Positions 43,396 to 62,425 of a DNA stretch of 64,000 bases are shown here, piece after piece. Position numbers and translations under genes: made by a program. Under the pieces are notes generated by a model that was not told the DNA's origin, made no database searches, and saw only the letters and a program-made list of their open reading frames with translations. Source of the DNA: Lentisphaerae bacterium GWF2_38_69. GTDB lineage: Bacteria > Verrucomicrobiota > Lentisphaeria > Victivallales > GWF2-38-69. The stretch covers positions 124,001-188,000 of the forward strand of contig MHBE01000059.1 in NCBI GenBank assembly GCA_001803205.1, read 5' to 3'. Numbering within the stretch: the stretch's first letter is position 1; each line of letters opens with the position of its first letter.

Positions 43396-43485
43396 TTATC
43401 TAGACTAAATATTAAACATACATCCTTGAATCGGTGGAAAAGAAGTTTAGTTTATGTCGCTTTTTTTAACTTATATACAAGGTAT

Positions 43486-45474
43486 ATGTACTTTTTTCTA
43501 ATAGGAGTATGCTTGATTCTGGCAGGCGGATTTGCCTCAATTTTTGCCAGAGAGGAAAGAAAAGGGCTACTGTTTTTGCTATTTTTCAGCACAGGCTCTT
43601 TCCTTGCTCTTGTTATTTCTCTTGACAGCCTTTTCTTTTCAACATTTTACTGTTTTTCTTTTAATCTCCCTTTCCCTGCAGGACAAGTAAAACTTCTTTT
43701 TGATCCTCTTTCAGCGTTTTTTATTTCTATGATCGCCGTTATGGGATTCCTTGGCGTATTTTATGGCAACTCATATTTAAAGAGTTATCTCAATAAAGAT
43801 TATGGAATTACTTCTCACTATATTTTCCTTGGCGTATTTTTTTCAGCACTGATTTTACTGCCTGTAATCAGAAATGCTTTCTTCTTCCTAATAGCATGGG
43901 AATTCATGTCTCTTTCTTCCTTTTTCCTTGTTCTTTTTGACAGGAAGAAGAAGGAAGTTATCTCAGCAGCAATTAATTATCTTGTTACTATGCACATATC
44001 AGTTATTTTCCTGATTCTTGGTTTTTCTATTTTGTCATTCTTCTCGGGAAGTTACGATTTCAGTTCATTCCATAATATTTTTAATAATAACCGATTTTTA
44101 GCTGATGCTGTTTTTGTTATTCTGTTTATCGGATTCGGATTTAAAGCAGGTCTTGTGCCTTTACATTTCTGGCTTCCAAAAGCACACCCGGCAGCTCCCA
44201 GCCATATATCTGGACTGATGTCAGGACTTATGATAAAAATAGGCATTTACGGCATTCTCAGAATGCTTCTTATAATGGGCAATCTTCATATTGAAATAGC
44301 ATATTTTGTTCTTGCCATAGGAATAATAACAATGCTTTATGGCATACTAAATGCGTCAGTGCAAAATGACATTAAGAAACTTCTTGCCTATAGCAGTATT
44401 GAAAATATTGGAATAATAACATGCGGAATCGGAGTAGGATTACTTGGAATAGTTTATAACAACACACTTGTAGCATTTCTTGGTTTTTTCGGTGGCCTTT
44501 TACATATATTGAACCATTCGATTTTTAAGGAACTTCTTTTTTTCGGGACAGGATCTGTATATACCAAAGCCCATACTCTCAACATAGATGAACTAGGCTC
44601 ACTGACAAAAAGGATGCCTACGACTTCTATTTTGTTTTTTACAGGAGTTCTAGCAATTTCAGGGATGCCTCTTTTAAATGGATTTATAAGCGAATTTTTA
44701 ATATATATGGCTTTATTAAGCGGATTTAAAATTCATGATCTGAATATTGTAATTGTCTTTATGATTTCTCTTGCCTCAATGGCTCTTACCGGAACCATGG
44801 CTCTTATGTGCTTTACAAAACTTTTCGGAATAGCATTTCAGGGAATGCCAAGAAGCGAAAAAGTTAAAGAAGTAACTACTGATGTGGGAATGTGGATGCT
44901 TCTGCCGAAAATTGCGCTTGCTGCTTTTATTATAATCATAGGGCTTCTGCCGAATGTCATGCTTCTCGTATTTGAACCTCTGATTAAATCTTTTGTAAGG
45001 GCAGAAAATTTTTCTCAGGCTTCGTTTTTTACTTTTAACTTATTAAATATAGTTTCCTTAGTATCGATTATTTTTTTATCTTTAATCATTATTATTTTGG
45101 CAATACGCAGCTTTTTGCTTAAAAACAAGAAAATCAGCCTTTACAAAACATGGGACTGTGGCTATCAGGCAGGTAATCAGAAAATGCAGTATACTTCTTA
45201 CTCTTTTGTCGGGCCATTCGTAGAGATGTTCAGTAATCTCTTTACTAAAAAAGAAAACCTAAATTCTCCTAAAACTCTTTTCCCCTCGAAAGGACACTTC
45301 AGAGTCAATATAGATGACCTCCTGGAAGTTTATTTTACCGAACCCATCATAAACGGAATAAAAAAGATCCTTGCAAAATTCATTTGGATTCAAAACGGCA
45401 GTACGCAAATTTATATACTGTACGGATTCATTTTCCTGATTCTTGCAATTATCGGTTTATTTATTTATTCCTAA
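43486..45474 (+). CDS. hyfB: Module A: HyfB-like antiporter-type membrane subunit
   Basis: Large polytopic subunit (about 662 residues, 14-16 spans) related to HyfB/HycC and complex I NuoL. Typical segments are FLIAWEFMSLSSFFLVLF, FGFKAGLVPLHFWLPKAHPAAPSH with its conserved Lys and His, KKLLAYSSIENIGII and NHSIFKELLFFGTGS. These half-channels pump H+ or Na+ in related complexes. I choose the ATG at 43486; the open frame extends back to a TTG at 43426. It opens a run of twelve plus-strand genes (to 58023) with gaps under 12 bases. It is one of two HyfB-like genes here (see 50569). Confidence 0.9.
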   Translation: MYFFLIGVCLILAGGFASIFAREERKGLLFLLFFSTGSFLALVISLDSLFFSTFYCFSFNLPFPAGQVKLLFDPLSAFFISMIAVMGFLGVFYGNSYLKSYLNKDYGITSHYIFLGVFFSALILLPVIRNAFFFLIAWEFMSLSSFFLVLFDRKKKEVISAAINYLVTMHISVIFLILGFSILSFFSGSYDFSSFHNIFNNNRFLADAVFVILFIGFGFKAGLVPLHFWLPKAHPAAPSHISGLMSGLMIKIGIYGILRMLLIMGNLHIEIAYFVLAIGIITMLYGILNASVQNDIKKLLAYSSIENIGIITCGIGVGLLGIVYNNTLVAFLGFFGGLLHILNHSIFKELLFFGTGSVYTKAHTLNIDELGSLTKRMPTTSILFFTGVLAISGMPLLNGFISEFLIYMALLSGFKIHDLNIVIVFMISLASMALTGTMALMCFTKLFGIAFQGMPRSEKVKEVTTDVGMWMLLPKIALAAFIIIIGLLPNVMLLVFEPLIKSFVRAENFSQASFFTFNLLNIVSLVSIIFLSLIIIILAIRSFLLKNKKISLYKTWDCGYQAGNQKMQYTSYSFVGPFVEMFSNLFTKKENLNSPKTLFPSKGHFRVNIDDLLEVYFTEPIINGIKKILAKFIWIQNGSTQIYILYGFIFLILAIIGLFIYS

Positions 45475-45481
45475 GGATATT

Positions 45482-46396
45482 ATGCTTAATGTAATTCTAA
45501 ATATCGTTTTTATTATTTTGCTGCCTCTTGCTTTTATCGGAGTGATAAACAAGACAAAGGCTTTCTGGAGCGGAAGGAAAGGAGCCTCGATAATCCAGCC
45601 TTATTATGATGTTTTAAGATTGCTCAAAAAAGAGTTAGTTATAAGCAGGACTGCCTCTTTTCTATTCCAAATATACCCTTCAATAACTCTAGCAGCTGTT
45701 TTCATGGCAGCATTACTTATCCCGTTTGTGATGCATTCATCTGTGATAACAATAGAAGGAGGATTTATATTTTTTGCTTATATTATGGCTTTCGGAAAAT
45801 TTCTCTCGGTTGTTGGCGCTATGGATGTGGGAAGCAGTTTTGAGGGAATGGGAGCTAGCAGAGAAGCATCGTTTTCCACTCTTGTTGAAGTAGCATTTTT
45901 CATAATTATGGGTTCCATTGCAGCAATCACTTCTGACAATACTTTTGGAGCTATTACTCTTATATTGGAAAAAGCTGGGACTATTGGTTATTTAATTAAA
46001 ATTCTTTCTATTATAACATTCTTAATTCTGATTCTGATTGAAGGCTGCAGAATTCCTGTAGATGACCCCAATACTCATCTGGAATTAACTATGATCCATG
46101 AAGTAATGATTCTTGATAACTCCGGGATAGACCTTGCTATGCTGACTTATGCATCTGCACTTAAAATGCTCATATTTACTTCGCTTATAGCAAATATGAT
46201 AATCCCTGAAAGTTCGCCTTTATTATTGTTTCTCCTTCTCTACTTTTTAATTGTTTTTGCTGTAGCTTTTGGGATAGGAACAATTGAATCTGCCATAGCG
46301 AGGCTGAGAATGAGCAGAGTTTTTGATTTTATATGCTTCACAAGTTCACTTGGAATAATAATGCTTGCACTGATAGTTGTGAGCATGTTTTCTTAA
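45482..46396 (+). CDS. hyfC: Module A: HyfC-like membrane subunit (NuoH family)
   Basis: Membrane arm subunit related to HyfC/HycD and NuoH (304 residues, about eight spans), which joins the ion-pumping arm to the redox arm. The signature loop is CRIPVDDPNTHLELTMIHE, and GRKGASIIQPYYDVLRLLKKE near the N-terminus is also typical. The ATG at 45482 has AAGGA five bases upstream; longer in-frame starts would run back into hyfB. The acidic loop residues thought to couple redox change to pumping are intact. Confidence 0.92.
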   Translation: MLNVILNIVFIILLPLAFIGVINKTKAFWSGRKGASIIQPYYDVLRLLKKELVISRTASFLFQIYPSITLAAVFMAALLIPFVMHSSVITIEGGFIFFAYIMAFGKFLSVVGAMDVGSSFEGMGASREASFSTLVEVAFFIIMGSIAAITSDNTFGAITLILEKAGTIGYLIKILSIITFLILILIEGCRIPVDDPNTHLELTMIHEVMILDNSGIDLAMLTYASALKMLIFTSLIANMIIPESSPLLLFLLLYFLIVFAVAFGIGTIESAIARLRMSRVFDFICFTSSLGIIMLALIVVSMFS

Positions 46397-46409
46397 GGAT
46401 TATATAACC

Positions 46410-47060
46410 ATGGAAAATACACTTTCATTGCTCTTTTCTTTCACGATGCTCTACATGGCATCTTCAGGCAGATTGAGGCCATATATCAATATGCTGGTAA
46501 TTCAGGGAGTACTTCTCTTCCTTATTTTTAATGAGCTTTTTGATCACATCAATATCATTAATTATTGTTTTCTAGCTTTTGAAACTATTGTAATAAAAGC
46601 AATTGTAATACCTTTGTTTATCTGGAAAATAATCAAAAAAAGTGAAACCTATATAGATACTCAACCTAGTATTCCAAGATTTTACTCACTCATTGCATCA
46701 ACTATAATACTTTTTTTCGGGTTTATTTTTGCAATAATATCCAAACATCATTTGCCGGTAGACAATCCTTTGCCGTTTGGTATATCCATGTCTACCATCA
46801 TAATAAGCCTACTCTTTATAACATTGAGGAAGAAAATACTTACAGCGATAATTGGTTATATTATGATGGAAAATGGCATTTTCCTGCTCTCCCTTTCAAT
46901 CGAAAATGAAATGCCGATGATAGTGAATATGGGTGTGCTTCTTGACCTATTCATTGCGGTCTTCATACTAGGATTCCTTGTGAAGAGAATAAATAGATCA
47001 TTCAACGGTGACAGCCTGGATAAGCTAATTGAACTTAAGGACACAGAAAATGATAATTGA
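46410..47060 (+). CDS. hyfE: Module A: HyfE-like membrane subunit
   Basis: The 216-residue membrane protein has about seven spans and resembles HyfE (which combines MrpC/NuoK-like features). The conserved second-half helix reads GYIMMENGIFLLSLSI, with the buried Glu of the NuoK type, followed by GVLLDLFIAVFILGF. It lies 14 bases after hyfC and overlaps the next gene slightly. The sequence is less conserved than its neighbours, as is usual for this subunit. Confidence 0.88.
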   Translation: MENTLSLLFSFTMLYMASSGRLRPYINMLVIQGVLLFLIFNELFDHINIINYCFLAFETIVIKAIVIPLFIWKIIKKSETYIDTQPSIPRFYSLIASTIILFFGFIFAIISKHHLPVDNPLPFGISMSTIIISLLFITLRKKILTAIIGYIMMENGIFLLSLSIENEMPMIVNMGVLLDLFIAVFILGFLVKRINRSFNGDSLDKLIELKDTENDN

Positions 47061-48495
47061 ACTTATATTGTTTTTACCTCTCATAAGCTGTGTGGCTCTT
47101 ATTATTTTTAAGAAAATTACCTTTTCCAGAATTTTGGTATTAGTAAACGCCTTTGCTCTTTTGTTTTATTCACTATCATTATATTTAGCGTTTATAAATA
47201 ATTCCAAAATAACTTCCCTCCTTGGACAATACTTCAAAATTGACGCGCTGAATATTCTTTTCCTTCTTATTCTTTCAATAGTTTTCATGGCAGTTTCGAT
47301 ATATAGCTGCGGTTATGTTAAAAGCATAAACATGCATAATAAAAAAGCCACTTATTATTCAGTAGGACTTCTTTTATTTATATTTACCATGCTAGGAACA
47401 GTTTTGAGTTCAAATATTGCCCTTTCATGGGTTTTCCTTGAAGGTACGACTCTTACTAGCGCCTACTTAATTTATTTCGAAAAGACAAAACAATCCCTGG
47501 AAGCTACCTGGAAATATGTCTTTATATGCTCGATCGGGATATCTCTTGGTTTTGTCGGGATTATCCTGCTGGCACTTTCAACACATAATTCAAGCAGTAT
47601 GTTTTTTATAGATTTATACAGTCATTATAGCAATTTCAATACTTTATGGATGAACTTAGGTTTTGTCTTTTTTATTATTGGAATAGGAACAAAAGCAGGA
47701 CTTGCCCCAGTGCATTCGTGGCTGCCTGATGCTCACTCAGAAGCTCCTTCACCTGTTTCAGCATTACTTTCCGGAATGCTTTTAAATACGGCTCTGCTTC
47801 TTGTGCTCAGATACTATCATATTCTTAATCTTGCAGATTGTGCTTCTTATGGCAGACTTCTCTTTCTGATAATGGGAATTCTCTCAATTTTTGTTACTGC
47901 AGTATATGTTTTCACTATAAAAAATTACAAAAGGATGCTGGCATATTCCTCCGTAGAAAATATGGGAATTATCTCGATAGGCCTAGCTCTTGGAAAAACT
48001 GGAGTCTATGCAGCACTTATTCATCTGATTTTTCATTCTTTCGCAAAATCTTCTTTTTTTATGACTTCAGGAAACATCTATGTAAAATTTAAAACTAAAC
48101 GCATAGATAAAGTTTCCGATATGATTACCTGCGATCCTCCTACTGGCTGGCTTTGGATTCTGACATTTATTGTAATTTCAGGCATCCCCCCTTCTCCTTT
48201 ATTTATCAGTGAGTTTCTAATTATCAAAGAATTGCTGGCAGATAAACATTATATCATTCTAGTTCTCTTCATATTGCTTCTGACAATAATAATGTATGGT
48301 ATAGCCAGATGCGTAATTAATATGACATTTGGCAAAAGACCTAATAGCGATCACTTTGATTATATTGAACAAACTAAACTCCCATGGACGATGTATGCTC
48401 CGCAGTTTGTTTTGCTGGCAATCCTGGCTTTTTCAGGAATTTACCTTTGTCCATTTCTAATCGAAATGATTAAAACTGCAGCACAGCTTATCTGA
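47050..48495 (+). CDS. hyfF: Module A: HyfF-like antiporter-type membrane subunit
   Basis: Second antiporter-like subunit of the module (about 481 residues, about 13 spans), related to HyfF and NuoN/NuoL. Key segments are SWVFLEGTTLTSAYLIYF, GTKAGLAPVHSWLPDAHSEAPSP (Lys/His channel residues) and RMLAYSSVENMGII. ATG 47050 has AAGGA eight bases upstream and is preferred over an in-frame codon at 47029 inside hyfE. It adds a second potential ion channel to the complex. Confidence 0.9.
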   Translation: MIIELILFLPLISCVALIIFKKITFSRILVLVNAFALLFYSLSLYLAFINNSKITSLLGQYFKIDALNILFLLILSIVFMAVSIYSCGYVKSINMHNKKATYYSVGLLLFIFTMLGTVLSSNIALSWVFLEGTTLTSAYLIYFEKTKQSLEATWKYVFICSIGISLGFVGIILLALSTHNSSSMFFIDLYSHYSNFNTLWMNLGFVFFIIGIGTKAGLAPVHSWLPDAHSEAPSPVSALLSGMLLNTALLLVLRYYHILNLADCASYGRLLFLIMGILSIFVTAVYVFTIKNYKRMLAYSSVENMGIISIGLALGKTGVYAALIHLIFHSFAKSSFFMTSGNIYVKFKTKRIDKVSDMITCDPPTGWLWILTFIVISGIPPSPLFISEFLIIKELLADKHYIILVLFILLLTIIMYGIARCVINMTFGKRPNSDHFDYIEQTKLPWTMYAPQFVLLAILAFSGIYLCPFLIEMIKTAAQLI

Positions 48496-48504
48496 GGTAA
48501 ATAT

Positions 48505-50016
48505 ATGGAAGGTTTTACGAAAATCACGAATAACCAAATAGCAAAACTTGTCGAAATTCCTATTCTTTCCTATACCATACTCAGAGATAAAATTATTGCA
48601 GACTTCAAAAAAAGGCAGCTAAGGTGCATTGGCTTTTTTGGTGTTGAAGAGTCTATAGATACCGTAAGACTCTTTGTTCTCCTTTCGGAAGACAGCAAAC
48701 ATCTAATTCATATTTCATCTGCTCATCTTGATAAAAATTCATCATACGAATCAATAACTAAAGAGATTTCATCTTTTCATATGTATGAAAGAGATTTCTA
48801 TGAAGAATTTGGCATAAAGATAGATGGGCATCCCTGGCTCAAAGGAGTTAATTTCAGAACAGGAAGAGCAAATGAAGAATCCTGCATGGAAAATTATCCT
48901 TTCTTCAAAATGGATGGAGAGTCTCTTCATGAAGTTGCCGTAGGACCTATTCATGCTGGTGTAATTGAACCCGGGCACTTCAGATTCCTATGCAATGGCG
49001 AACAGGTTTATCATCTTGAAATTCAGCTTGGATATCAGCACAGAAATATTGAAAATTTATTTTTAGAAAGAAACCTAAAATTCATGCCTCATCTCGCTGA
49101 ATCCATAGCCGGTGACACTGTCATAGGACATAATCTTGCTTGCCTTAATCTCATAGAAGCTTTAACTCAGACAATTATACCTGATAGAGCCATACTTATA
49201 CGCACGATTGCTCTGGAGATGGAAAGAGCAGCCATTCATCTGGCAGATCTAAGCGCTCTTGCAAACGATATAGGATATCTTATGGGCAGTTCAGTCTTCG
49301 GAGTAACAAGAACGATCATAATTAACACTTTACTGCTTATCTGCGGAAATAGATTCGGAAGAGGGCTGATGCGCCCCGGCGGATGCGTTTTCGATATACA
49401 CAAAGCGCTTACTGAAAAAATCAGAACAAACTTATCTAAAGTAAAAGAAGATACTATCAGAATGGCTGAAACGATGTTCAAAAGCCATACTGTCGCATCT
49501 AGATTTGAAAATACAGGGATATTAACAAAAGAAGAAGCTATCAGCATTGGCGCAGTTGGGATGACTGCCAGAGCTTCTTCATATAATGTAGACGCAAGGC
49601 ATTCACATCCTTTTGGTTTTTATAAAAAGCTTCTTCTTGGGGAAAAGACTCACAAAAAAGGAGACGTTCACTCAAGAGCATATCTTAGATATGAAGAAAT
49701 TATTGAATCAATCGAAATTGTATTTACTCTCTTGAATGAACTCGAAGACAAAAAGACTGGAACTCAGATAATGACTAAAATTAAAGATAAATTCCAACCT
49801 TCTTCACTTGTTGTTTCCATTGTAGAAGGCTGGAGAGGCGAAATAATACACTGCGCAATTACAAACAATGAAGGAGATCTGTTAAAATATAAAATAAAAG
49901 ATCCCTCCCTCACTAACTGGTTTGCTCTTGCTTTAGCAGTCCGTAATAATGGCATCTCCGATTTCCCACTCTGTAATAAGAGTTTTAACCTCTCATACTG
50001 TGGAAATGATTTATAA
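48505..50016 (+). CDS. hyfG: Module A: NuoC-NuoD/HyfG-like large subunit lacking NiFe ligands
   Basis: The 503-residue protein fuses a NuoC-like N-terminal domain (about 1-130, FHMYERDFYEEFGI) to a 49-kDa/hydrogenase large-subunit domain starting at VGPIHAGVIEPGHFRF (147-162). In NiFe hydrogenases a CxxC pair follows ER in the first motif; here residues 199-210 read ESIAGDTVIGHN with no Cys. The second CxxC near the C-terminus is also missing; the end reads LCNKSFNLSYCGNDL, two isolated Cys instead of a DPCxxC motif. So no NiFe site can form in the normal way. It matches Ehr-type complexes or a structural paralogue. Confidence 0.9.
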   Translation: MEGFTKITNNQIAKLVEIPILSYTILRDKIIADFKKRQLRCIGFFGVEESIDTVRLFVLLSEDSKHLIHISSAHLDKNSSYESITKEISSFHMYERDFYEEFGIKIDGHPWLKGVNFRTGRANEESCMENYPFFKMDGESLHEVAVGPIHAGVIEPGHFRFLCNGEQVYHLEIQLGYQHRNIENLFLERNLKFMPHLAESIAGDTVIGHNLACLNLIEALTQTIIPDRAILIRTIALEMERAAIHLADLSALANDIGYLMGSSVFGVTRTIIINTLLLICGNRFGRGLMRPGGCVFDIHKALTEKIRTNLSKVKEDTIRMAETMFKSHTVASRFENTGILTKEEAISIGAVGMTARASSYNVDARHSHPFGFYKKLLLGEKTHKKGDVHSRAYLRYEEIIESIEIVFTLLNELEDKKTGTQIMTKIKDKFQPSSLVVSIVEGWRGEIIHCAITNNEGDLLKYKIKDPSLTNWFALALAVRNNGISDFPLCNKSFNLSYCGNDL

Positions 50017-50027
50017 CGGAAATATTT

Positions 50028-50564
50028 ATGTTTAAATTCATATCTAAAATATTATCAACTGAAAAAACAGTTATACAACTTCATGATTTAATTAATGATG
50101 ATGAACTTTCAGAAACGGGTAAAAAAGTAGAACAGAAGATAAAACGGCTCTTTAAATCCTCTCTGGCAATTCGAGCCGTGGATACCGGTTCTACAAATGC
50201 CTGCGAACAGGAACTTACTGCTTTGGGAAACTCTTATTATGATATTGAACGATTTGGTATTCGTTTTGTGGCCTCTCCGAGACACGCGGACATGTTAATG
50301 GTTACTGGACCAGTCTCAAGAAATATGAAAGATGCGCTACTAAAGACATATGAAGCCACACCTGATCCAAAAATTGTCGTTGCAGTCGGTGATGACGCAA
50401 TAGATGGTGGAATTTTTAAAGGTTCCTATGGGGTTCTTGACGGAGTACACAATGTCATACCTGTGGATTTTAATATTCCCGGAGATCCTCCGTCTCCTAA
50501 AACAATACTTTCACATATACTTCAAATATTAGAAATGATAGATTCATCTGGCAAAAATAAATAA
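50028..50564 (+). CDS. hyfI: Module A: degenerate HyfI/NuoB-like small subunit
   Basis: The 178-residue protein is clearly NuoB/HyfI-like (ERFGIRFVASPRHADMLMVTGPVSRNM), but the cysteines for the proximal [4Fe-4S] cluster are mostly lost. The usual GSCNGCE reads GSTNACE (T56, only C59 left). The usual GACAxxGG reads GDDAIDGG (D123). The usual IPGCPP reads IPGDPP (D153). C59 is the only Cys in the protein. The reading frame is intact and flanked by normal spacing, so this looks like selected change, not decay. It has no ferredoxin domain. The module thus appears unable to transfer electrons. Confidence 0.9.
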   Translation: MFKFISKILSTEKTVIQLHDLINDDELSETGKKVEQKIKRLFKSSLAIRAVDTGSTNACEQELTALGNSYYDIERFGIRFVASPRHADMLMVTGPVSRNMKDALLKTYEATPDPKIVVAVGDDAIDGGIFKGSYGVLDGVHNVIPVDFNIPGDPPSPKTILSHILQILEMIDSSGKNK

Positions 50565-50568
50565 TCTT

Positions 50569-52623
50569 ATGAATATCATGTTTAATACCTTTACCTCATC
50601 AAATATTTTCATAGGAGCAATTGTTCTATGGGCAATTGGAGCCGCTGGGTCTTTATTTCTCAGAAAAAATGACAATTTATCAAATACCTTTGGCAATTGT
50701 TTTGCTGTTTTAGGCTCTATTTTAGGGTTAATCTCTTCTTCCCTGGTTTTTATTGGAGGTTTTGAATTTTCATTCAATATCGTTTCTTCTCTTCCGCTTT
50801 TGTCATTATCATTCAAAGTGGATAAATTAGCCGCATTTTTTATCTTCACTATTTCTCTTATAGCTCTGCTGTCTTCTCTTTATGCTTTGGAATATATAAA
50901 GCATTATTACACAAAATATAATATCGGAACTTTGAACTTCTTTTATAATATCTTTATTCTGGGAATGGTTTTGGTCGTCAGCGCAAATAACGCACTCTTC
51001 TTTCTGATTGTCTGGGAGATAATGTCCCTTGCTTCATATTTCTTAGTGATATATGAAAACAAAGAGAAAGATAACCTGAAGGCAGGTTCTCTCTACTTCA
51101 TTATGACCCACATAGGAACTGCGTTTATTACTTTGGCATTTCTACTCTTATATAGTGCGACAGGATCTTTGGATTTTTCCATCATAAAAGAAAATATCGG
51201 AAATGTTACTCCACTTGTCAAAAATATTGTTTTTATTCTTTCCATAGTTGGATTTGGAACAAAAGCAGGAATTATTCCGCTTCATATCTGGCTGCCTGGC
51301 GCCCATCCGGCAGCACCCTCACATGTTTCAGCATTAATGTCCGGAGTAATGATTAAGACTGGTATTTATATGTTTATCAGAATTTTTATGGATATTATAA
51401 CTACCGCGCCAGTCTGGTGGGGAACTGTAATTTTGATTCTCGGTGCAATATCTTCGCTCCTGGGAGTTTTATATGCTCTAACTGAACACGATATTAAAAG
51501 GCTTTTGGCTTACCACAGCATAGAAAATATTGGCATTATAATGATGGGAATCGGCAGTTCCTTGATCTTTTGGTCTTTAGATATGAAACCTTATGCAATA
51601 CTTGGGCTAGTTGCCGCTCTCTTTCACACTATCAACCATGCAATATTCAAAGCATTGCTGTTCCTTGGAGCAGGTTCTGTTATCTCAAAAATGCATACCA
51701 GAAATATGGAAGAATATGGGGGTTTGATAAAGTATATGCCGCAAACAGCTTTTTTCTTTCTCATTGGATCCATGGCTATTTCTGCTTTTCCCCCTTTCAA
51801 TGGCTTTTTTAGTGAATGGATAACTTTTCAAGCTCTTTTTAAAGGCATTATGATTTCTGATACTTCTGTGAGGTGGGCTTTTTTAACAGCCGCAGGTTCA
51901 TTAGCATTTACTGGAGGATTGGCAGCAATGTGTTTTGTTAAAGTATTTGGATCAACTTTTCTTGCCCGCCCCAGAAGCAAAGAAGTATCCCATGCTAAAG
52001 AAGCTGGCATAAAAATTCGATTTAGTATGTTAATTCTCTCAACTCTTACATTGTTACTCGGGCTTGCTTCGGGCACTGTTACTGACATATTATCAGGAAT
52101 TGTAAATAACTTGGGAATTTTTAATAAAGTTAAACCAGTATTGCTTGCAACTGCTGTCAATGTTCGATTAGAAGATAATTTTTCCGCTGTATCAATACCA
52201 CTTATACTCATAATCTTAATAGTTGTAACTGTGCTAATTTTTATTCTTGTATCTGCTTTTACTCTAAATACAAAAATACAAATAGGAGATACCTGGGATT
52301 GCGGTTCTACCCTAACCTCGAGGATGGAGATTACTGCAACAGCATTTGCCAACTCTATTATTTCTATTTTTCATGGAGTTCTCAAGCCGACTAAACAAAT
52401 TACTATTGAATACCGCGATGCAAGTATGCGCTATTTTCCCAAAACCGAAACGGTCAGACTCGGAACCAAAGATATTTACCGGGGTTATTTTTACCTGCCT
52501 GTCCAACTTCTTACCACCAAAGTCTCAGGATATGTGAAAAAGATTCAAAGCGGTAATATAAACACTTACATTCTTTATATATTAATAATACTAATTGCTA
52601 TGCTCTTATTGGCATCTATTTAA
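50569..52623 (+). CDS. hyfB: Module B: HyfB-like antiporter-type membrane subunit
   Basis: Second HyfB-type subunit (684 residues), paralogous to the one at 43486. Conserved segments are FFLIVWEIMSLASYFLVIYE, GFGTKAGIIPLHIWLPGAHPAAPSH, RLLAYHSIENIGIIMMGI and NHAIFKALLFLGAGSV. It begins 4 bases after module A ends, so both modules are probably one transcript. The shared segment pattern suggests an ancient duplication of the whole cluster, since the two copies differ at many positions. Confidence 0.9.
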   Translation: MNIMFNTFTSSNIFIGAIVLWAIGAAGSLFLRKNDNLSNTFGNCFAVLGSILGLISSSLVFIGGFEFSFNIVSSLPLLSLSFKVDKLAAFFIFTISLIALLSSLYALEYIKHYYTKYNIGTLNFFYNIFILGMVLVVSANNALFFLIVWEIMSLASYFLVIYENKEKDNLKAGSLYFIMTHIGTAFITLAFLLLYSATGSLDFSIIKENIGNVTPLVKNIVFILSIVGFGTKAGIIPLHIWLPGAHPAAPSHVSALMSGVMIKTGIYMFIRIFMDIITTAPVWWGTVILILGAISSLLGVLYALTEHDIKRLLAYHSIENIGIIMMGIGSSLIFWSLDMKPYAILGLVAALFHTINHAIFKALLFLGAGSVISKMHTRNMEEYGGLIKYMPQTAFFFLIGSMAISAFPPFNGFFSEWITFQALFKGIMISDTSVRWAFLTAAGSLAFTGGLAAMCFVKVFGSTFLARPRSKEVSHAKEAGIKIRFSMLILSTLTLLLGLASGTVTDILSGIVNNLGIFNKVKPVLLATAVNVRLEDNFSAVSIPLILIILIVVTVLIFILVSAFTLNTKIQIGDTWDCGSTLTSRMEITATAFANSIISIFHGVLKPTKQITIEYRDASMRYFPKTETVRLGTKDIYRGYFYLPVQLLTTKVSGYVKKIQSGNINTYILYILIILIAMLLLASI

Positions 52624-52628
52624 ATATT

Positions 52629-53555
52629 ATGTCTGTTCTTCTTTGGTTAATTCAATTAATTCTTATTCCTCTTCTTTCACCGCTCTGCATTGGAATAGTA
52701 AGAAAGATAAAAGCTAAATTTCAAAATAGAACCGGCGCAAGCGTGCTTCAGCCTTATAGAGATTTATGGAAACTATTTCAAAAAGATGAAGTAATAAGTA
52801 AAGATGCTTCATGGATTTTTAAATTTGCTCCGTATTTCATTTATTCAATCACTGTTATTTTAGGGGCAAGCATCCCCATATTCAGCACAATTTTTTATCC
52901 TAATCTGCTTAGTGACATATTAGTTGTAATTTATCTGATAGCTCTAGGAACATTCTTTCTGGCTTTGGCAGGAATGGATTCAGGTAGCGCATTCGGCGGA
53001 TTTGGTTCAAGTCGAGAAATGACAGTAGCAGCTTTAACAGAAGGCGGATTAATGTTTTCTATTCTAACTTTGGCATTTGCCGCTCATTCAACAAATTTGT
53101 TTGTAATAGCAAAAAATATTTCTTCGTTATCCTTTTTCTCTTTTGCTCCGATAATTCTTGCTTTTGGAGCCTTCATTATCACCATGCTCTCAGAAACTTC
53201 CCGATTCCCGTTTGATAATCCCGCTACACATCTCGAACTTACTATGATTCACGAGGCTATGATCTTGGAATATTCCGGAAAAAGACTGGCATTGATTGAA
53301 TGGGCGGCGGCAAATAAATTTCTTATCTTCTTGAGCTTGGGAGCAAATTTATTCTTCCCATGGGGAATGTCTTTAACAAATTGTTTGTCAGATACTTTGC
53401 TAGCATTATTTTTATTTGCAGTAAAAATATTAATTCTATGTGTTTTCGTTGCTGTTTTGGAATCCAGCATTGCCAAATTCAGATTTTTTAGATTGCCTGA
53501 TTTATTATTCACTTCATTTATTTTAAGTATAATTTCAATTAGCCTGATTATATAA
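52629..53555 (+). CDS. hyfC: Module B: HyfC-like membrane subunit (NuoH family)
   Basis: NuoH-type subunit of 308 residues, about eight spans. The coupling loop is RFPFDNPATHLELTMIHEA, the counterpart of RIPVDDPNTHLELTMIHEV in module A. The N-terminal segment NRTGASVLQPYRDLWKLFQKDE is also characteristic. It starts 5 bases after module B hyfB. Motifs are intact. Confidence 0.92.
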   Translation: MSVLLWLIQLILIPLLSPLCIGIVRKIKAKFQNRTGASVLQPYRDLWKLFQKDEVISKDASWIFKFAPYFIYSITVILGASIPIFSTIFYPNLLSDILVVIYLIALGTFFLALAGMDSGSAFGGFGSSREMTVAALTEGGLMFSILTLAFAAHSTNLFVIAKNISSLSFFSFAPIILAFGAFIITMLSETSRFPFDNPATHLELTMIHEAMILEYSGKRLALIEWAAANKFLIFLSLGANLFFPWGMSLTNCLSDTLLALFLFAVKILILCVFVAVLESSIAKFRFFRLPDLLFTSFILSIISISLII

Positions 53556-53560
53556 AAACT

Positions 53561-54220
53561 ATGAATCATCTATCCTCACATTTTTTATTTTTCCTTGAAA
53601 CAATTCTTTTTACCTCTGTGGTTTTAATGCATCTTACCAAAAAAAACTTCACAGTCATTCTTCTTTATACTGTACAATCATTAGTCGTATCCGGAGTCTT
53701 ATTTTATTCATCCATACAAGAAGCTTCATTCCTGCTATTTATCGTTGCTGCAATGACCTTTATTGTAAAAGTAGGAATAGCTCCATATTTCTTTTTCAAG
53801 CTTATTAAGCTCCATCGCCTGCAGTTTTCAGTCAGCACATATTTAAATAGCCCTATGACATTTATAGTTATCGCACTGCTTACTGCGTTTACCTATTCAC
53901 ATTATTTCAGAAAGCTAACCATACTTTCTCCGTCTAATGGAGATGCTCTGCTGCTCTCCATGTCTATGATTTTTATAGCTATATTTCTGACAGTTAATCG
54001 CAAAGGTGCTTTGTCCCAAATGGTTGGTATTCTTTCTTTTGAGAATGCAATCGTTTCTTTTGCATATATTACCGGACTAGAAACAAATGCAGGAGCTGAA
54101 GTTGGCATATTGTTTATCATTTTTATCTGGATAATAATAGCAACTGTTTTTGCATCAATGATATATACTCATTTTGGCACTCTTAATGTTAGTCAGATGA
54201 AGAATTTAAAAGAAGAATAA
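53561..54220 (+). CDS. hyfE: Module B: HyfE-like membrane subunit
   Basis: The 219-residue protein has about seven spans. It carries the NuoK-type buried Glu in MVGILSFENAIVSFAYI. It occupies the same slot as the module A HyfE-like gene and has similar length, although overall similarity by eye is low, as expected for this fast-changing subunit. A 5-base gap precedes it. Confidence 0.87.
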   Translation: MNHLSSHFLFFLETILFTSVVLMHLTKKNFTVILLYTVQSLVVSGVLFYSSIQEASFLLFIVAAMTFIVKVGIAPYFFFKLIKLHRLQFSVSTYLNSPMTFIVIALLTAFTYSHYFRKLTILSPSNGDALLLSMSMIFIAIFLTVNRKGALSQMVGILSFENAIVSFAYITGLETNAGAEVGILFIIFIWIIIATVFASMIYTHFGTLNVSQMKNLKEE

Positions 54221-54224
54221 TACA

Positions 54225-55673
54225 ATGGCTTTAATACTAATCATTATACTACCTGTTATAGCAGCACTTCTATCATATATTTTTAGAAAAAGCTTATTGT
54301 GGCTAAGTTGGATTGCGGTTATTGTCTCTATCCTTGAGCTCTCGACAGCACTTACGATAGTTATATCTATCCTAAATGGCGGATCGATAATAGTTCATTC
54401 TACTTATTATTTTGCTATAGATCCTTTGGGAATTATTCTATTGATGATATTAACACTCGTAGGAACCATGGCCTCAGTCTATTCTGTTGGCTATATAAAG
54501 CAAGAAGTAGAAAATAAAGTTATAGTTTTATACAAAGCTCACCAGTACTTCATTCTTCTTCATTTGTTCATTTTTGCTATGTTTTTCGCTATTATGACAA
54601 CAAGTCCAATCCTCATGTGGATTGCAATTGAAGCCACGACTTTATCAACAGCATTCCTTGTCAGTTTTTATAATAAACCTTCAGCGATAGAAGCTGCCTG
54701 GAAATATTTGATAATAAATTCCATTGGAGTGCTTCTTGGATTTTTTGGAACTCTATTATTCCTTTATCCAACATTGCATGCAAATCACAGAGGATTTGTA
54801 AATTGGACATTACTTCTAAATAACGCATCTGCTTTTGATCCATTCATAGCTAAAATAGCCTTCGTTATTGTCCTGATTGGCTATGGCACAAAAGTCGGAC
54901 TTGTTCCAATGCATCCCTGGCTTCCTGATGCCCATAGTAAAGCACCTGCTCCCATCAGCAGTTTGCTTTCAGGAGTTTTGCTTAATGTCGCATTTTTTGC
55001 CGTGCTCAAGTTCAAAGCTGTTACAGATATTGCAATCGGTTCGTCCTTTTCACAAATGCTTATGATATTTTTTGGCATTCTGTCAATAACTGTAGCGGCT
55101 TTTATTATTTTTGTTCAAAAAAACTATAAAAGGCTTCTGGCATACAGTAGCGTTGAACATATGGGGATTATTGCGCTAGGCTTTGGATTTGGCGGAATAG
55201 GGTCATTCGCGGCCTTGCTTCACATGATATATCATTCCTTAGCCAAATCTGCTCTTTTTCTTCTGTCGGGTAATGTCTTTATCCGATATAACACTACCAA
55301 AATATCTGAAGTAAAAGGAATGATTAAAGTTCTACCCATTACCAGTGTATTATTTTTCATTGGCTTTTTAGCGATAACAGGAATTCCACCTTTTGGAATT
55401 TTCATAACAGAATTCACAATACTATCAGCAGGAATCAGCTCCCATCCGGTCATTACCTGTATTGCTTTATTCTCATTAGTGCTCGTATTTACCGCTATCA
55501 TTAAACATATCGTTAAAATGATCTTCGGAAAATCTGATGAAAGCACATCAAAATGCGAAATTAGTTTTTTGACTGTTTTCCCGCCGTTAATTTTGATCGC
55601 TATACTGATAGTGTTAAGCTTTTTTATTCCACAAAATTTACAATTTTTATTGCACGCAGCTGCTGCAAAATAA
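54225..55673 (+). CDS. hyfF: Module B: HyfF-like antiporter-type membrane subunit
   Basis: The 482-residue polytopic subunit has the channel segments MWIAIEATTLSTAFLVSFY, GTKVGLVPMHPWLPDAHSKAPAP and RLLAYSSVEHMGIIALGFG. It is paralogous to 47050. Its Lys and His residues of the half-channels are retained. With hyfB it gives module B two potential ion-translocating subunits; with module A the whole cluster has four. Confidence 0.9.
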   Translation: MALILIIILPVIAALLSYIFRKSLLWLSWIAVIVSILELSTALTIVISILNGGSIIVHSTYYFAIDPLGIILLMILTLVGTMASVYSVGYIKQEVENKVIVLYKAHQYFILLHLFIFAMFFAIMTTSPILMWIAIEATTLSTAFLVSFYNKPSAIEAAWKYLIINSIGVLLGFFGTLLFLYPTLHANHRGFVNWTLLLNNASAFDPFIAKIAFVIVLIGYGTKVGLVPMHPWLPDAHSKAPAPISSLLSGVLLNVAFFAVLKFKAVTDIAIGSSFSQMLMIFFGILSITVAAFIIFVQKNYKRLLAYSSVEHMGIIALGFGFGGIGSFAALLHMIYHSLAKSALFLLSGNVFIRYNTTKISEVKGMIKVLPITSVLFFIGFLAITGIPPFGIFITEFTILSAGISSHPVITCIALFSLVLVFTAIIKHIVKMIFGKSDESTSKCEISFLTVFPPLILIAILIVLSFFIPQNLQFLLHAAAAK

Positions 55674-55680
55674 CATCACC

Positions 55681-57252
55681 ATGAAATTAAAAATGATTAA
55701 AAAATACATTTCAGACGAGTATAAAATAAAGAAAGAAGGCAATGTACTATCTTATGCTGTTCCAGTTGCCGATATAGTACAAGTCTGCAACGATTTGTAC
55801 TTTAAACATAAACTTCAGCTTAAACTAATAACGGCTCTTGATGACAGGGAGAACACCGGGCAATTCAAAATTTTTTATGTCTTTGGAATCTCTCCTGAAA
55901 ATATATTTTTACTTCCATATATATCTCTGAAAGATGAAGAGGAATTTCCTTCTATTACTAAACTCATTCATGAAGCTTCATCTTATGAAAGAAAAATTTA
56001 TACTTTTTTCGGTTTACGCCCGAAAGACCATCCTCATATGACTCAAATCTTGCTTCATGAAAACTGGCCGGATAAAGTTTTTCCTCTGCGAAAAGACTTT
56101 AAATACCAGACAAGACCAGATTATGTTGATGGAGTATATGAATCTCAGAAAGTTGAAGGAGAAGGAGTATACGAAATCCCTGTTGGGCCGGTTCATGCGG
56201 GTATCATTGAGCCTGGGCATTTTCGTTTTAGCGTTGCCGGAGAAAAAATATTATTGTTGAAACCCAGGTTAGGATATAAACACAAAGGCATAGAAAAACT
56301 TTTCGAAGTTTTGCCAATAAGTGATAAAGTTCGACTATCCGAAAGAGTCTCTGGTGATACTTCTTTTACTCATTCCATGGCTTTTTGCCAATCTATTGAG
56401 ATGCTTGCTGATATCGATGTTACTGAAAGAGTAAAATATTTAAGGGTTATTTTTTCTGAACTGGAAAGACTTGCAAATCACCTCAATGATATCGGATTTA
56501 TAATGCTTGACACAGGCTATAGTTTCGGCGGCAGCAATTGCGCTCGTTTACGCGAAGTAATTATGCAATGGAATGAACGCCTTACTAATAGCCGTTTTTT
56601 AAGGGGAGTAAATATGATCGGAGGAATTCAAAAAGATATCCCGATTAAGTTGTGCCACGAATTATTGTTGACACTGAAAAAAATAAAACATGACTTTAAC
56701 GAAATTATAGCAGTTTCTCAGAGCAGCAGTTCTGTTATTAACCGTCTTTCCGGCACTGGAAATGTAGCTAAACAAGTTGCAGTAGATCATGGACTTATTG
56801 GCATATCAGGCAGATCTATAGGGATTAAACATGACGCCCGTATCGAATACCCTTATGCTGCGTATAATAAATTAAATTTTGACATGGCTTTAGAAGAGAA
56901 AGGAGATGTACTTGCCCGATGGTCTGTTCGCATCAAAGAAGTTTCTACCTCTATTTCTATTTTAGAGCAGGCTATTCTTGAAATGCCTTCTGATAACAAC
57001 ATCTTGCATAACAAAAACAACTTTGCTCTGCGCTCCAATAGTTACAGCATAGGTATAGCAGAAGGATGGAGAGGAGATATTGTATATTTTGTAGCTACTG
57101 ATTCTAAAGGAGAGATAGCTAGAGTAGATGTACGCGACCCATCTTTTATAAATTGGACTATTTTAGAACATTCTGTTAATGAAGATATAATACCGGATTT
57201 TCCCCTTATAAATAAAAGCTTCAATTTGTCTTACTCAGGCAATGACTTATAG
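55681..57252 (+). CDS. hyfG: Module B: NuoC-NuoD/HyfG-like large subunit lacking NiFe ligands
   Basis: The 523-residue protein has a NuoC-like domain (about 1-150) and a NuoD/HyfG-like domain starting at VGPVHAGIIEPGHFRF (168-183). The first hydrogenase motif reads ERVSGDTSFTH (221-231), with no Cys where CGIC would occur. The C-terminal end, FPLINKSFNLSYSGNDL, also lacks the DPCxxC pair. So it cannot bind NiFe in the normal way. It is the closest relative of the module A large subunit, with the same C-terminal pattern NKSFNLSY-GNDL. In Ehr-type complexes such a subunit is thought to act in an unknown redox or quinone-like reaction. Confidence 0.9.
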   Translation: MKLKMIKKYISDEYKIKKEGNVLSYAVPVADIVQVCNDLYFKHKLQLKLITALDDRENTGQFKIFYVFGISPENIFLLPYISLKDEEEFPSITKLIHEASSYERKIYTFFGLRPKDHPHMTQILLHENWPDKVFPLRKDFKYQTRPDYVDGVYESQKVEGEGVYEIPVGPVHAGIIEPGHFRFSVAGEKILLLKPRLGYKHKGIEKLFEVLPISDKVRLSERVSGDTSFTHSMAFCQSIEMLADIDVTERVKYLRVIFSELERLANHLNDIGFIMLDTGYSFGGSNCARLREVIMQWNERLTNSRFLRGVNMIGGIQKDIPIKLCHELLLTLKKIKHDFNEIIAVSQSSSSVINRLSGTGNVAKQVAVDHGLIGISGRSIGIKHDARIEYPYAAYNKLNFDMALEEKGDVLARWSVRIKEVSTSISILEQAILEMPSDNNILHNKNNFALRSNSYSIGIAEGWRGDIVYFVATDSKGEIARVDVRDPSFINWTILEHSVNEDIIPDFPLINKSFNLSYSGNDL

Positions 57253-57264
57253 GATAATTTGATT

Positions 57265-58023
57265 ATGGCCAATACTCTTAAAATAAAATATTACAACAAG
57301 AAACAATTCATCCCTGATATTAAAAAAGCCTTGCCTGACAAAATGCACAGGGGTTTGCCAATACTGGATACCGAAAAGTGCAGCCAATGCGGCAATTGCA
57401 AAACAATCTGCCCTACAGCAGCAATAGGACAAAACCCTATCAGCATCGACTTGGGCAAATGCATTTTCTGCGGTGACTGTGAAAGAATCTGCAAAACAGG
57501 AGCGATTATCTTCAGTAATTTTAATAAGCTTTCTTCAGCTTCAAGAGAGGGTTTAGTCATAACAGAAAAAACAACATCTGAAGCATTCTTGCCTCCAGCT
57601 TTTAAAGTAAGGCAGGAAATTAAACATATCTTTAAAAATTCATTAAAACTCCGTCAGGTATCAGCCGGAGGATGCAATGGCTGCGAATTTGAACTCAATG
57701 CCTGCTCTAATGCTAACTTTGACATGGGAAGGTTTGGAATTGAATTTGTAGCATCGCCGAGACATGCCGACGGATTGGTTATAACAGGACCAATAACCAG
57801 AAATATGGCACCTGCTCTTGAGGACGCATATCATAGCACACCTAATCCCAAAGTAGTTATTCTTACTGGAGCTTGCGCTATAAGCGGAGGGCTTTTTAAG
57901 GATTCTACAGCCATTGACAGGTCATTTCTTCAAAAATATAAAATAGACCTTTACATTCCAGGCTGCCCTATTCACCCTCTAACCTTTATCAACGCAATCC
58001 TCTGCTTTATAGGCAGATATTGA
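57265..58023 (+). CDS. Module B: fused ferredoxin (HyfH-like) and HyfI/NuoB-like small subunit
   Basis: The 252-residue protein (ATG 57265, AGGAT nine bases upstream) joins two domains. Residues 36-82 carry two [4Fe-4S] ferredoxin motifs, CSQCGNCKTICP and CIFCGDCERICK. From about 130 a NuoB/HyfI domain follows with all four cluster cysteines: C137 and C140 (GGCNGCE), C204 (TGACAISGG) and C234 (IPGCPIHP). So up to three clusters could pass electrons to the large subunit. In E. coli these are separate hyfH and hyfI genes. This is the functional counterpart of the degenerate module A gene at 50028 and ends the cluster. Confidence 0.92.
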   Translation: MANTLKIKYYNKKQFIPDIKKALPDKMHRGLPILDTEKCSQCGNCKTICPTAAIGQNPISIDLGKCIFCGDCERICKTGAIIFSNFNKLSSASREGLVITEKTTSEAFLPPAFKVRQEIKHIFKNSLKLRQVSAGGCNGCEFELNACSNANFDMGRFGIEFVASPRHADGLVITGPITRNMAPALEDAYHSTPNPKVVILTGACAISGGLFKDSTAIDRSFLQKYKIDLYIPGCPIHPLTFINAILCFIGRY

Positions 58024-59499: not shown

Positions 59500-60990
59500 T
59501 CAACAAAATGTAGGCCGCAGGGTTTCGAGATACTTATTGTACTGTGAATATATGGATTTATAAATTTTCATATTTTCCATTACGGGAAAACTTCCCTTAC
59601 TTGAATCAAGTTTAACATGATTTTCGGCAATTGCTTGAATACTAATTTTCTCGCCACCTACAACCTGATAAGACCAGAGAGCCTGAAGAGCCGCTCCGAA
59701 AGCAGCGCCTTCCTGAATTTCAGGAACTACTATAGGAAGTTCAAAAATATCTGAGGCCATCTGCCTCCATATCCTGCTCTTTGAACCTCCTCCTGTCAAT
59801 CTGATTTCTTTTGGCTGAAATCCTAAATCCCTTAAAGTATCAAGACCATATTTCATTCCGAATATTGTCGCTTCCATAGATGAACGCAAAATATTGGCTT
59901 TATTCATATTGTTCATTGTCAAACCCAGAATACACCCTTTTCCTCCCGGGAGATTTGGAGATCTTTCTCCGTTGTAGAAAGGAAGAGTAATAATTCCATC
60001 TGAGCCGGGTTTTGTATCTGCCAGGAGTTTTTCAATTTCAGAAATTTCTGTATTAAGCAAAGCTCTGGTAAGCTCAAGGGAAATTGTGCAGTTCATTGTG
60101 CACAGTAACGGAAGATAACCATTTGTAGATGAACAAAATGCCGCAAGAGATCTGTCGATTATAGGAATATCAGAGTAGCCGTAAAGCGTCCCTGATGTTC
60201 CGAGACTCATTGTAATGACTCCTTTGCTTACAGCTCCTGTCCCAATTGCTCCCATCATATTATCTCCGCCGCCGGAGGAGACGATCGTCTCTTTTGGTAA
60301 TTCCAGCTGCCGAGCAATATCTGCCTTTATTCTGCCGCAAGGAGTCTCAGCAGAAATAAGATTGGGAAGCTTTTTAATCAAATCCTGACTAGGATCAACT
60401 GCTTTTAAGATTTTTTCTGACCATTTTTTTATTCTGATATTAAGGCAGCCTGTTCCGGAAGCATCTCCATATTCCATAACCTTATTTCCTGTAAGGTAAT
60501 AATTTATATAGTCATGGGGCAGAAGAATTGTATCGAGCTTAGCGTATAACTGAGGTTTATGCTTCTTAAGCCATAGTACTTTTGGTATCGTGTACCCTGG
60601 AAGTATAAGATTTCCTACCTCATCAAGGAGAGCTTGCTCTCCTCCTTCAAATGCTTCAGCTATCTCCCTGCATTCCTGAGCTGTAGAAGTATCACACCAG
60701 AGTTTGACATTGTAAAGAACATTTCCATCATTATCCAAAGGGACAAAACCATGCTGCTGGCCTGAAACACCTGCAGCGACAGCAGTTAATTTGATTTTTG
60801 GATCAATTTGAGAAAGGCTTTTTTTAATCGCATCAATATACCAACGAGCCTTTTGTTCTCTTGTGCCGTCATCTGCTGAAATAAGTTCTAGAGGAGCTGA
60901 AGCCTCTGCTATGATTCTTTTATCTTCAAAGTCATAAAATATTGTTTTGACGCTCTGCGTACCTACATCAATTCCAAGAACAGTGTTCAT
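59500..60990 (-). CDS. xylB: Xylulokinase
   Basis: Phosphorylates D-xylulose to xylulose-5-phosphate (496 residues, FGGY kinase family). I choose the ATG at 60990, where the family N-terminus VLGIDVGTQSVKTIF begins and AAGGA lies 10 bases upstream; the frame extends back to 61041. Other landmarks are SGQQHGFVPLD, LLPHDYINYYLTGN, the phosphate-2-like segment SSGGGDNMMGAIGTGAV and LTGGGSKSRIWRQMASD. It is the last gene of the xylose unit (transporter, isomerase, kinase). Confidence 0.93.
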   Translation of the reverse strand: MNTVLGIDVGTQSVKTIFYDFEDKRIIAEASAPLELISADDGTREQKARWYIDAIKKSLSQIDPKIKLTAVAAGVSGQQHGFVPLDNDGNVLYNVKLWCDTSTAQECREIAEAFEGGEQALLDEVGNLILPGYTIPKVLWLKKHKPQLYAKLDTILLPHDYINYYLTGNKVMEYGDASGTGCLNIRIKKWSEKILKAVDPSQDLIKKLPNLISAETPCGRIKADIARQLELPKETIVSSGGGDNMMGAIGTGAVSKGVITMSLGTSGTLYGYSDIPIIDRSLAAFCSSTNGYLPLLCTMNCTISLELTRALLNTEISEIEKLLADTKPGSDGIITLPFYNGERSPNLPGGKGCILGLTMNNMNKANILRSSMEATIFGMKYGLDTLRDLGFQPKEIRLTGGGSKSRIWRQMASDIFELPIVVPEIQEGAAFGAALQALWSYQVVGGEKISIQAIAENHVKLDSSKGSFPVMENMKIYKSIYSQYNKYLETLRPTFC

Positions 60991-61031
60991 TTTTAAATTT
61001 TCCTTTAAGTTGTTTGGCAGAATTTTTTGCA

Positions 61032-61059
61032 GTAGAGACACAAAATATTGTATCTCTAC
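61032..61059. repeat. REP-like hairpin between xylB and xylA
   Basis: GTAGAGA (61032-61038) and TCTCTAC (61053-61059) form a perfect 7-bp stem; a mismatch and a further ACAA/TTGT stem continue inward. Its core GAC(A/G)CAA...TTG resembles the hairpin at 6074-6093, so both may belong to one dispersed repeat family. No T-run follows. Confidence 0.55.
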
Positions 61060-61092
61060 CTAGAGCAACCGTAGGATGAGCTTTTTCCCAGA

Positions 61093-62412: not shown

Positions 62413-62425
62413 TTTCTTTATCTCC

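Follow-up and report, generated by a model that had tools for sequence, protein, structure and literature searches.

An operon of six genes from Lentisphaerae bacterium GWF2_38_69, denoted X in the following, encodes a member of the complex I superfamily whose small subunit has exchanged three of the four cysteines that serve as [4Fe-4S] cluster ligands in its relatives. The complex as a whole appears to be devoid of any known redox metal site, with the binding of an unfamiliar cofactor remaining conceivable. The chances are about even that this six-subunit complex works as a gradient-driven ion translocator without electron transfer. This reading is based on the lack of recognizable redox sites, the retained ion path, the stand-alone occurrence of X and the proximity of its genes to those of ATP synthases, the latter being seen in a minority of loci from genomes that are not independent of each other. 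A wider proposition falls somewhat short of an even chance: a whole branch of the superfamily would have given up electron transfer, and a gradient-driven exchanger, accompanied by a proton-type ATP synthase and bearing an Asp/Arg-Lys bridge at the former cluster, would have spread among Patescibacteria and to a few other bacteria.

Organization of the locus

The window, i.e. the whole stretch of 64,000 nucleotides that was analysed, harbors operon X (gene order I'-B-C-E-F-G, with I' denoting the cluster-less small subunit) together with a conventional operon R, which resembles those of energy-converting hydrogenase-related complexes (Ehr, relatives of group 4 [NiFe] hydrogenases without Ni-binding cysteines) and shows the order B-C-E-F-G-I with a ferredoxin fused to I. 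The genes of both operons are interleaved with almost no gaps. Counterparts refer to G001, a genome of the same family.

43426..45474, + strand: HyfB of the host operon R, conventional and Ehr-like (Pfam; G001 counterpart)
45443..46396, + strand: HyfC of R, start uncertain, overlapping hyfB (reading frame; G001 counterpart)
46410..47060, + strand: HyfE of R (reading frame; G001 counterpart)
47029..48495, + strand: HyfF of R (Pfam; G001 counterpart)
48505..50016, + strand: HyfG, large subunit of R, Ehr type, likewise without Ni-binding cysteines (Pfam; alignment)
50028..50564, + strand: I', cluster-less NuoB/HyfI-like small subunit, first gene of the inserted operon X (Pfam Oxidored_q6, 3.6e-26)
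50569..52623, + strand: HyfB/NuoL-like antiporter-type subunit of X, 3' of I' in other X loci too (Proton_antipo_M, 4.9e-60)
52629..53555, + strand: HyfC/NuoH-like membrane anchor of X (NADHdh, 2e-45)
53561..54220, + strand: HyfE-like membrane subunit of X (NCBIfam hydrogenase 4 membrane subunit, 2.6e-14, under the cut-off of the model)
54225..55673, + strand: HyfF/NuoM-like antiporter-type subunit of X (Proton_antipo_M, 7.6e-51)
55681..57252, + strand: HyfG/NuoCD-like large subunit of X, without Ni-binding cysteines or the quinone Tyr/His of complex I (Complex1_49kDa and 30kDa)
57259..58023, + strand: HyfI of R with a fused two-cluster ferredoxin domain, every ligand cysteine kept (Oxidored_q6 and Fer4)

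The Pfam search gave no match for HyfE of X in the window. The motifs of HyfI at 57259-58023 (GGCNGCE, GACAISGG and IPGCPI) confirm the cysteine-bearing small subunit that a first-pass annotation of this DNA had described for the second of two modules. Downstream of the operon, a set of sugar (xylose-like) isomerase, kinase and transporter genes was recognized by reading alone on the minus strand (59500-63904). The genome of the window (G000) holds two further loci with PF01058 proteins, L002 and L003 on contigs C29 and C44. Because large-subunit motifs RICGIC and RLCGIC/DPCLSC occur in their surroundings, this organism apparently encodes active [NiFe] hydrogenases as well.

The same annotation had assigned I' to the upstream module as its small subunit, which is contradicted by the gene order elsewhere and by the separate contigs of G001. 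In all 33 X loci of sufficient length (from the genome scan described below, or G001), HyfB lies 3' of I', and I' is followed by HyfB and downstream genes in seven of seven further loci. As far as each contig reaches, the genes following I' in other genomes encode HyfB, HyfC, HyfE, HyfF and HyfG and resemble 50569-57252 far more than 43426-50016, the exception being HyfE, a poorly conserved subunit, of L114 and L115. In G001, I'BCEFG is located on one contig (C70), and BCEFG with the ferredoxin-fused HyfI on another (C74), where the latter directly follows the R-type hyfG. Ferredoxin-fused HyfI adjoins its HyfG without X genes in between in G001 and in 20 R loci; among the loci examined, X is placed between hyfG and hyfI of R in the window only. 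From the I'BCEFG order in other genomes and the two contigs of G001, I' belongs to the complex encoded by 50028-57252. The HyfI at 57259-58023 is then the true partner of 43426-50016, and the region 43426-58023 represents an R operon with X inserted between hyfG and hyfI-Fd. Since the two operons are interleaved almost without gaps, this insertion into a native Ehr-type operon probably leads to co-expression of a redox-driven complex and a putatively redox-free one.

Loss of the cluster ligands in the small subunit

I' comprises 178 aa in an open frame (50028-50564). Its ligand motifs, read correctly in the first-pass annotation, are GSTNACE (54-60), GDDAIDGG (121-128) and IPGDPP (150-155), with T56, D123 and D153 in place of [4Fe-4S] cysteines and C59 as the sole remaining ligand cysteine. 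Positions 56, 59, 123 and 153 are taken to be the cluster ligands from knowledge of the family; in the alignment, 21 of 22 conventional relatives have cysteine at each of the four. Among 45 aligned X sequences, position 56 is occupied by T (24), D (17) or S (3; one gap), position 59 by C (34), E (4), A (3), P, T or V (one each; one gap), position 122 by D (44) or N (1), position 123 by D (42) or G (3), position 126 by D (39), N (3), T (2) or S (1), and position 153 by D (43) or N (2). Cysteine is absent at 56 in all 44 readable sequences and at 123 and 153 in all 45, and 10 of the 44 readable sequences have no ligand cysteine at all (L070, lacking its start, was left out of this count). C59, retained in 34 of 44 only, is not essential to the family, and a single cysteine cannot hold a cluster.

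A pattern scan of 84,980 species genomes yielded 40 relatives. With 58-82% identity, 36 of them (L035-L070) and the copy of G001 make up the cluster-less group X; the remaining four are more distant. Since one scan pattern overlapped the GDDAIDGG motif, which might have biased the sample, the search was repeated by whole-protein similarity. A match was obtained in 15 out of 379 Patescibacteria genomes that had been drawn evenly. Eleven of these are X-type (10 full, one partial; three previously found by the scan), and all 10 full-length proteins lack cysteine at 56, 123 and 153, as do all three X copies from 296 genomes of the phylum of Cryobacterium. Among 288 genomes of the window's own phylum, matches above 58% identity were restricted to G000 and G001; beside these, there were five further close matches (53-58%) and G480, and the four examined (L128-L131) have the complete set of ligand cysteines. 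These motif-free searches gave the same result for X, which speaks against a bias of the scan pattern as the cause of the uniform cysteine loss.

Some further sequences deviate from the two groups. A ferredoxin-fused small subunit of the R type in a Patescibacteria genome (G271; L113:15659-16411, minus strand) reads GGDNSAE/GTDAISGG/ICGNPP and has retained its ferredoxin cysteines; it represents a second, independent loss of cluster ligands. A very divergent relative on a 3 kb contig of the Gammaproteobacteria assembly JOPF060 (L072:1402-2022) reads GANGALI/GDDAIDGG/VPGCPP and sits on a branch of length 4, its placement being unsure. In one X-bearing Patescibacteria genome (L118, G402), the small-subunit frame contains one TGA, possibly used as a sense codon.

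The first-pass annotation had deduced a loss of redox function and suggested a comparison with close homologues. The T/D/D substitutions turn out to be conserved across many phyla, and redox function at the cluster site of I' is accordingly lost. Between the window and G001, I' shows a dN of 0.147 with saturated dS, so that dN alone is usable and no ratio can be given; the protein is under strong constraint. Judging from these comparisons, the cysteine loss is old and conserved and not a product of chance or decay. A pseudogene was ruled out by the conserved substitutions and this constraint. The probability of a decaying gene or a sequencing error is negligible: nothing other than the cysteine loss itself speaks for it, and it is opposed by identical substitutions in 44 other sequences, by the dN value at saturated dS, by open frames and by complete operons. 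The view that the frame is intact and the fold kept is borne out by a predicted model of I' (pLDDT 77.5), which matches MbhJ (6cfw_J) with Z 15.9 and an rmsd of 1.9 over 127 residues in a structural search, the top match being a complex I subunit (Z 16.2). Among the best 50 structural matches of the small-subunit or large-subunit model, no family outside the complex I relatives was found.

A possible salt bridge at the former cluster site

Position 222 of the large subunit is basic in all 36 X sequences (R in 20, K in 15, H in one) and non-basic in 21 of 22 R sequences. It aligns with Arg84 of Nqo4, presumably the arginine beside N2. An assembled complex without N2 has a precedent, since in Yarrowia mutating that arginine abolishes N2 and leaves the enzyme otherwise intact (PMC8042128). 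Within X, T/S56 pairs with R222 in 19 of 21 sequences and D56 with K222 in 14 of 14, giving 33 of 35 overall. This covariation weakly favors a salt bridge at the Asp site; it is supportive and not proof, because the 56/222 state changes three times on the tree (at least two) and other columns reach equal mutual information.

Redox sites and ion path of the complex

CxxC motifs are absent from every X subunit (45 sequences of I, 43 of B, 41 of C, 39 of E, 37 of F and 36 of G). None of the 36 X large subunits has Ni-binding cysteines: position 224 is occupied by S or A, 227 by T or S (M in one sequence, A in another), 517 by S, and 520 by G (A in one sequence, S in another). The window protein reads RVSGDT and NLSYSGND at the places where group 4 [NiFe] hydrogenases have RxCGxC and DPCxxC. 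The quinone-site residues of complex I, Tyr87 and His38 of Nqo4, align with G225 and I176 in a HMMER alignment, and Gly and Ile occupy these positions in 36 of 36 X sequences. In the window, none of the X genes showed a cofactor domain in the Pfam search, and NuoF, the NADH-oxidising module, is not encoded in the X operon. R large subunits lack Ni ligands too, yet clusters are kept in R. The first-pass annotation had spoken of an ion-pumping module without its own electron donor. The pumping parts are indeed present, but the statement was too weak, as no electron path was found in the whole complex. Moreover, 25 of the 36 carrier genomes encode no PF01058 protein besides the X small subunit, and thus no other member of this family to supply an electron donor.

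Charged residues along the ion path, those of the antiporter-type subunits as well as those of the E-channel, are well preserved in X. Invariant are E150, K232 and K361 of HyfB, E136 and K223 of HyfF (K341 in 36 of 37), E138, E189, E203 and E278 of HyfC (E209 in 40 of 41), and K70 and E161 of HyfE. HycC of formate hydrogenlyase (FHL) aligns a Leu with K232 of HyfB, and a Leu at the pump Lys position is also described for the solved subunit (PMC9474812). In a comparison of HyfC between X and R, E134 is changed to Gly, D208 to Asn and D225 to Glu. Since few Glu/Asp changes in the membrane arm separate X from R, no antiporter-specific feature was identified.

The predicted model of the X large subunit (pLDDT 86.4, with low confidence for segment 163-182) superimposes on HycE (7z0s_E) with Z 44.5 and an rmsd of 2.7 over 490 residues. 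N511, K512, S513, S517, Y518 and D522 make up a polar pocket that shows no variation in X or in R. This is a hint that the pocket may bind a substrate, so that the soluble arm would be more than a simple cap.

Distribution and origin

One branch parts X from R in the small-subunit tree of 74 sequences (98/91; 100% of 200 bootstrap trees), and the split receives 100/100 in the large-subunit tree of 58 sequences. The carriers are mainly tiny host-dependent bacteria (Patescibacteria), with a few other bacteria. According to these trees, X evidently has one origin and spread laterally. In the small-subunit tree, X of the window clusters with G001, one Moranbacteria and one Dadabacteria assembly (98/93), and R of the window with its own order; because of this difference, lateral acquisition of the X operon by the window lineage is indicated. 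Identities between the window and G001 amount to 70-82% for X proteins and 53-64% for R proteins; the higher values of X are as expected from a later acquisition or a stronger constraint.

Among the carriers outside the Patescibacteria, a check for contamination by composition covered L066, the copy of Cryobacterium sp. Y50. Its tetranucleotide profile correlates with other stretches of the same assembly (r 0.93-0.99) and hardly with two Saccharibacteria loci (-0.01 and 0.17), making a Saccharibacteria-like contaminant contig an unlikely source. By composition this copy looks native, and the strain, if available, would be a cultured carrier of X.

Genomic context and ATP synthase

The 25 genomes with I' as the sole PF01058 protein encode NuoF in one case, COX1 in one and the epsilon subunit of ATP synthase in 24; for all 36 carriers the numbers are seven (NuoF, PF01512), six and 34, and the absences are soft because most carrier genomes are incomplete metagenome assemblies. 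Ten of 44 loci (L036, L040, L045, L050, L051, L061, L062, L068, L069 and L114) have genes for catalytic subunits of ATP synthase no more than 8 kb away from X, assigned by Pfam for three proteins and via a similarity cluster for the rest; 33 of the 44 offer at least 3 kb of upstream and 28 at least 3 kb of downstream sequence. The I' frame of L045 starts 4 bases after the end of atpC, X of L050 lies between atpA and atpD, and the ATP synthase genes of L051 are found downstream of X on the opposite strand. The window itself shows no link of ATP synthase genes with X. Besides ATP synthase, no neighbor is conserved in more than four of the 44 loci, among the clusters listed.

In Na+-type ATP synthases, the carboxylate of the c subunit is followed by Ser/Thr. 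Because the c subunits of L045, L050, L062, L068 and L069 lack Ser/Thr at this place, the ATP synthases beside X look H+-type, and a Na+-type enzyme was rejected for these five loci. As a further neighbor, a gene resembling those of ion transporters follows X at a distance of some 0.7 kb in L061 and L062, its similarity cluster spanning three loci; the copy of L062 belongs to the CitMHS/ArsB families and is NhaD-like by reading. A protein with a putative carbonic anhydrase domain (Pro_CA_2) is encoded 73 bases 3' of operon X in L044 (17349-18287, plus strand).

Proposed function and alternative explanations

As a gradient-driven translocator, X would most likely be a cation/H+ exchanger following the logic of Mrp antiporters. 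Where a respiratory chain is missing, the H+-ATPase would build up the proton gradient that X consumes; alternatively, X may exchange this gradient for one of Na+ or K+. Asp123, Asp153 and Thr/Asp56 of the small subunit, together with Arg/Lys222 of the large subunit, may have replaced the cluster, so that the soluble arm would persist as a fixed cap secured by salt bridges.

The main rival is a remade site, which is considered unlikely. Here, Asp 122, 123, 126 and 153, T/D56 and the conserved E60 would bind either a substrate or, without cysteines, a metal (Mg, Mn, Fe or Zn), and ion transport would be coupled to some non-canonical reaction taking place in the former Ni/quinone pocket. Such a site would account for Asp at 122, 123 and 153 in 44, 42 and 43 of 45 sequences and for the polar pocket that does not vary in X and R, and the carbonic anhydrase domain next to X in the single locus L044 might be seen as a hint to a reaction. 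However, neither His nor Cys accompanies these aspartates, three of 45 sequences have Gly at position 123, the basic residue 222 (R, K or H in 36 of 36) would compete with a cation, and a conserved enzyme partner is absent from the neighborhood. The probability is lower still for X as a regulatory or scaffold complex, e.g. of the ATP synthase, that brings about no net transport of ions: the 10 of 44 loci with ATP synthase genes at most 8 kb away, and X between atpA and atpD in L050, would suit this role, but a scaffold needs none of the charged ion-path residues that are invariant in both antiporter-type subunits, HyfC and HyfE.

The interleaved, almost gapless operons of the window might also suggest that I' acts in or beside the R complex, with R giving energy or electrons to X. 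This swap or supercomplex is very improbable, given that R and X are on separate contigs in G001, that a second PF01058 protein is absent in 25 of 36 other carriers, and that the X subunits offer no electron path by which electrons could be taken up.

Relation to known systems

Regarding Ehr complexes, X has the same subunit set, with HyfB/C/E/F-type membrane subunits encoded together and a large subunit lacking Ni-binding cysteines. The Ehr small subunit generally carries an N2-type [4Fe-4S] cluster; its ligand cysteines are absent in all readable X sequences and present in 21 of 22 R sequences. X differs from Ehr by the lost cluster, the absent ferredoxin, the I'-first order and the ATP synthase often nearby. 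For CPR bacteria, the Ehr large subunits were described as monophyletic, apart from other Ehr and devoid of metal-binding cysteines (Jaffe et al., 2020; PMC7304191). X, monophyletic in our trees as that clade is, very probably corresponds to it. The cysteine loss in the CPR Ehr large subunit is already known, and the loss in the small subunit seems to be new as far as searched: titles and abstracts of the open-licence literature contained no report of a cluster-less small subunit. ATP synthase proximity or operon order of CPR Ehr was mentioned neither in such titles and abstracts nor in the accessible part of the text of PMC7304191.

By sequence or fold, the closest solved relatives of four X subunits are HycG, HycE, HycD and HycC of FHL/hydrogenase-4 (E. 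coli Hyc/Hyf; 7z0s). FHL includes a formate dehydrogenase, a [NiFe] site and at least seven Fe-S clusters, and its HycC carries Leu in place of the pump Lys that X retains. Of the Pyrococcus complexes MBH (membrane-bound hydrogenase) and MBS (sulfane-sulfur reductase), the former contains the near relatives MbhJ and MbhL. In both complexes the small subunit has retained its Fe-S clusters, and MBS catalysis depends on one. MBS illustrates that the Ni site can be lost within the family (PMC7684303).

Antiporter-type subunits with conserved Glu/Lys that work without redox chemistry are a likeness between X and the Mrp cation/proton antiporters, MrpA (7qru_A) being among the matches. To our knowledge, Mrp complexes have no NuoH-, NuoCD- or NuoB-like subunits, in contrast to X, which keeps all three. 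Respiratory complex I is distinguished from X by the quinone Tyr/His and by NuoF, which the X operon lacks. How electron transfer is coupled to distant ion pumping in complex I is debated, and X, which may run on ion gradients alone, would be a natural separation of the two halves. Concerning the hosts, CPR bacteria were noted to possess an F-type ATP synthase although it is not obvious where their proton-motive force would come from; operation of this enzyme in reverse, driving antiporters, was one suggestion (PMC8080830). As a conserved antiporter-type complex encoded beside ATP synthase, X is a concrete candidate for such an antiporter.
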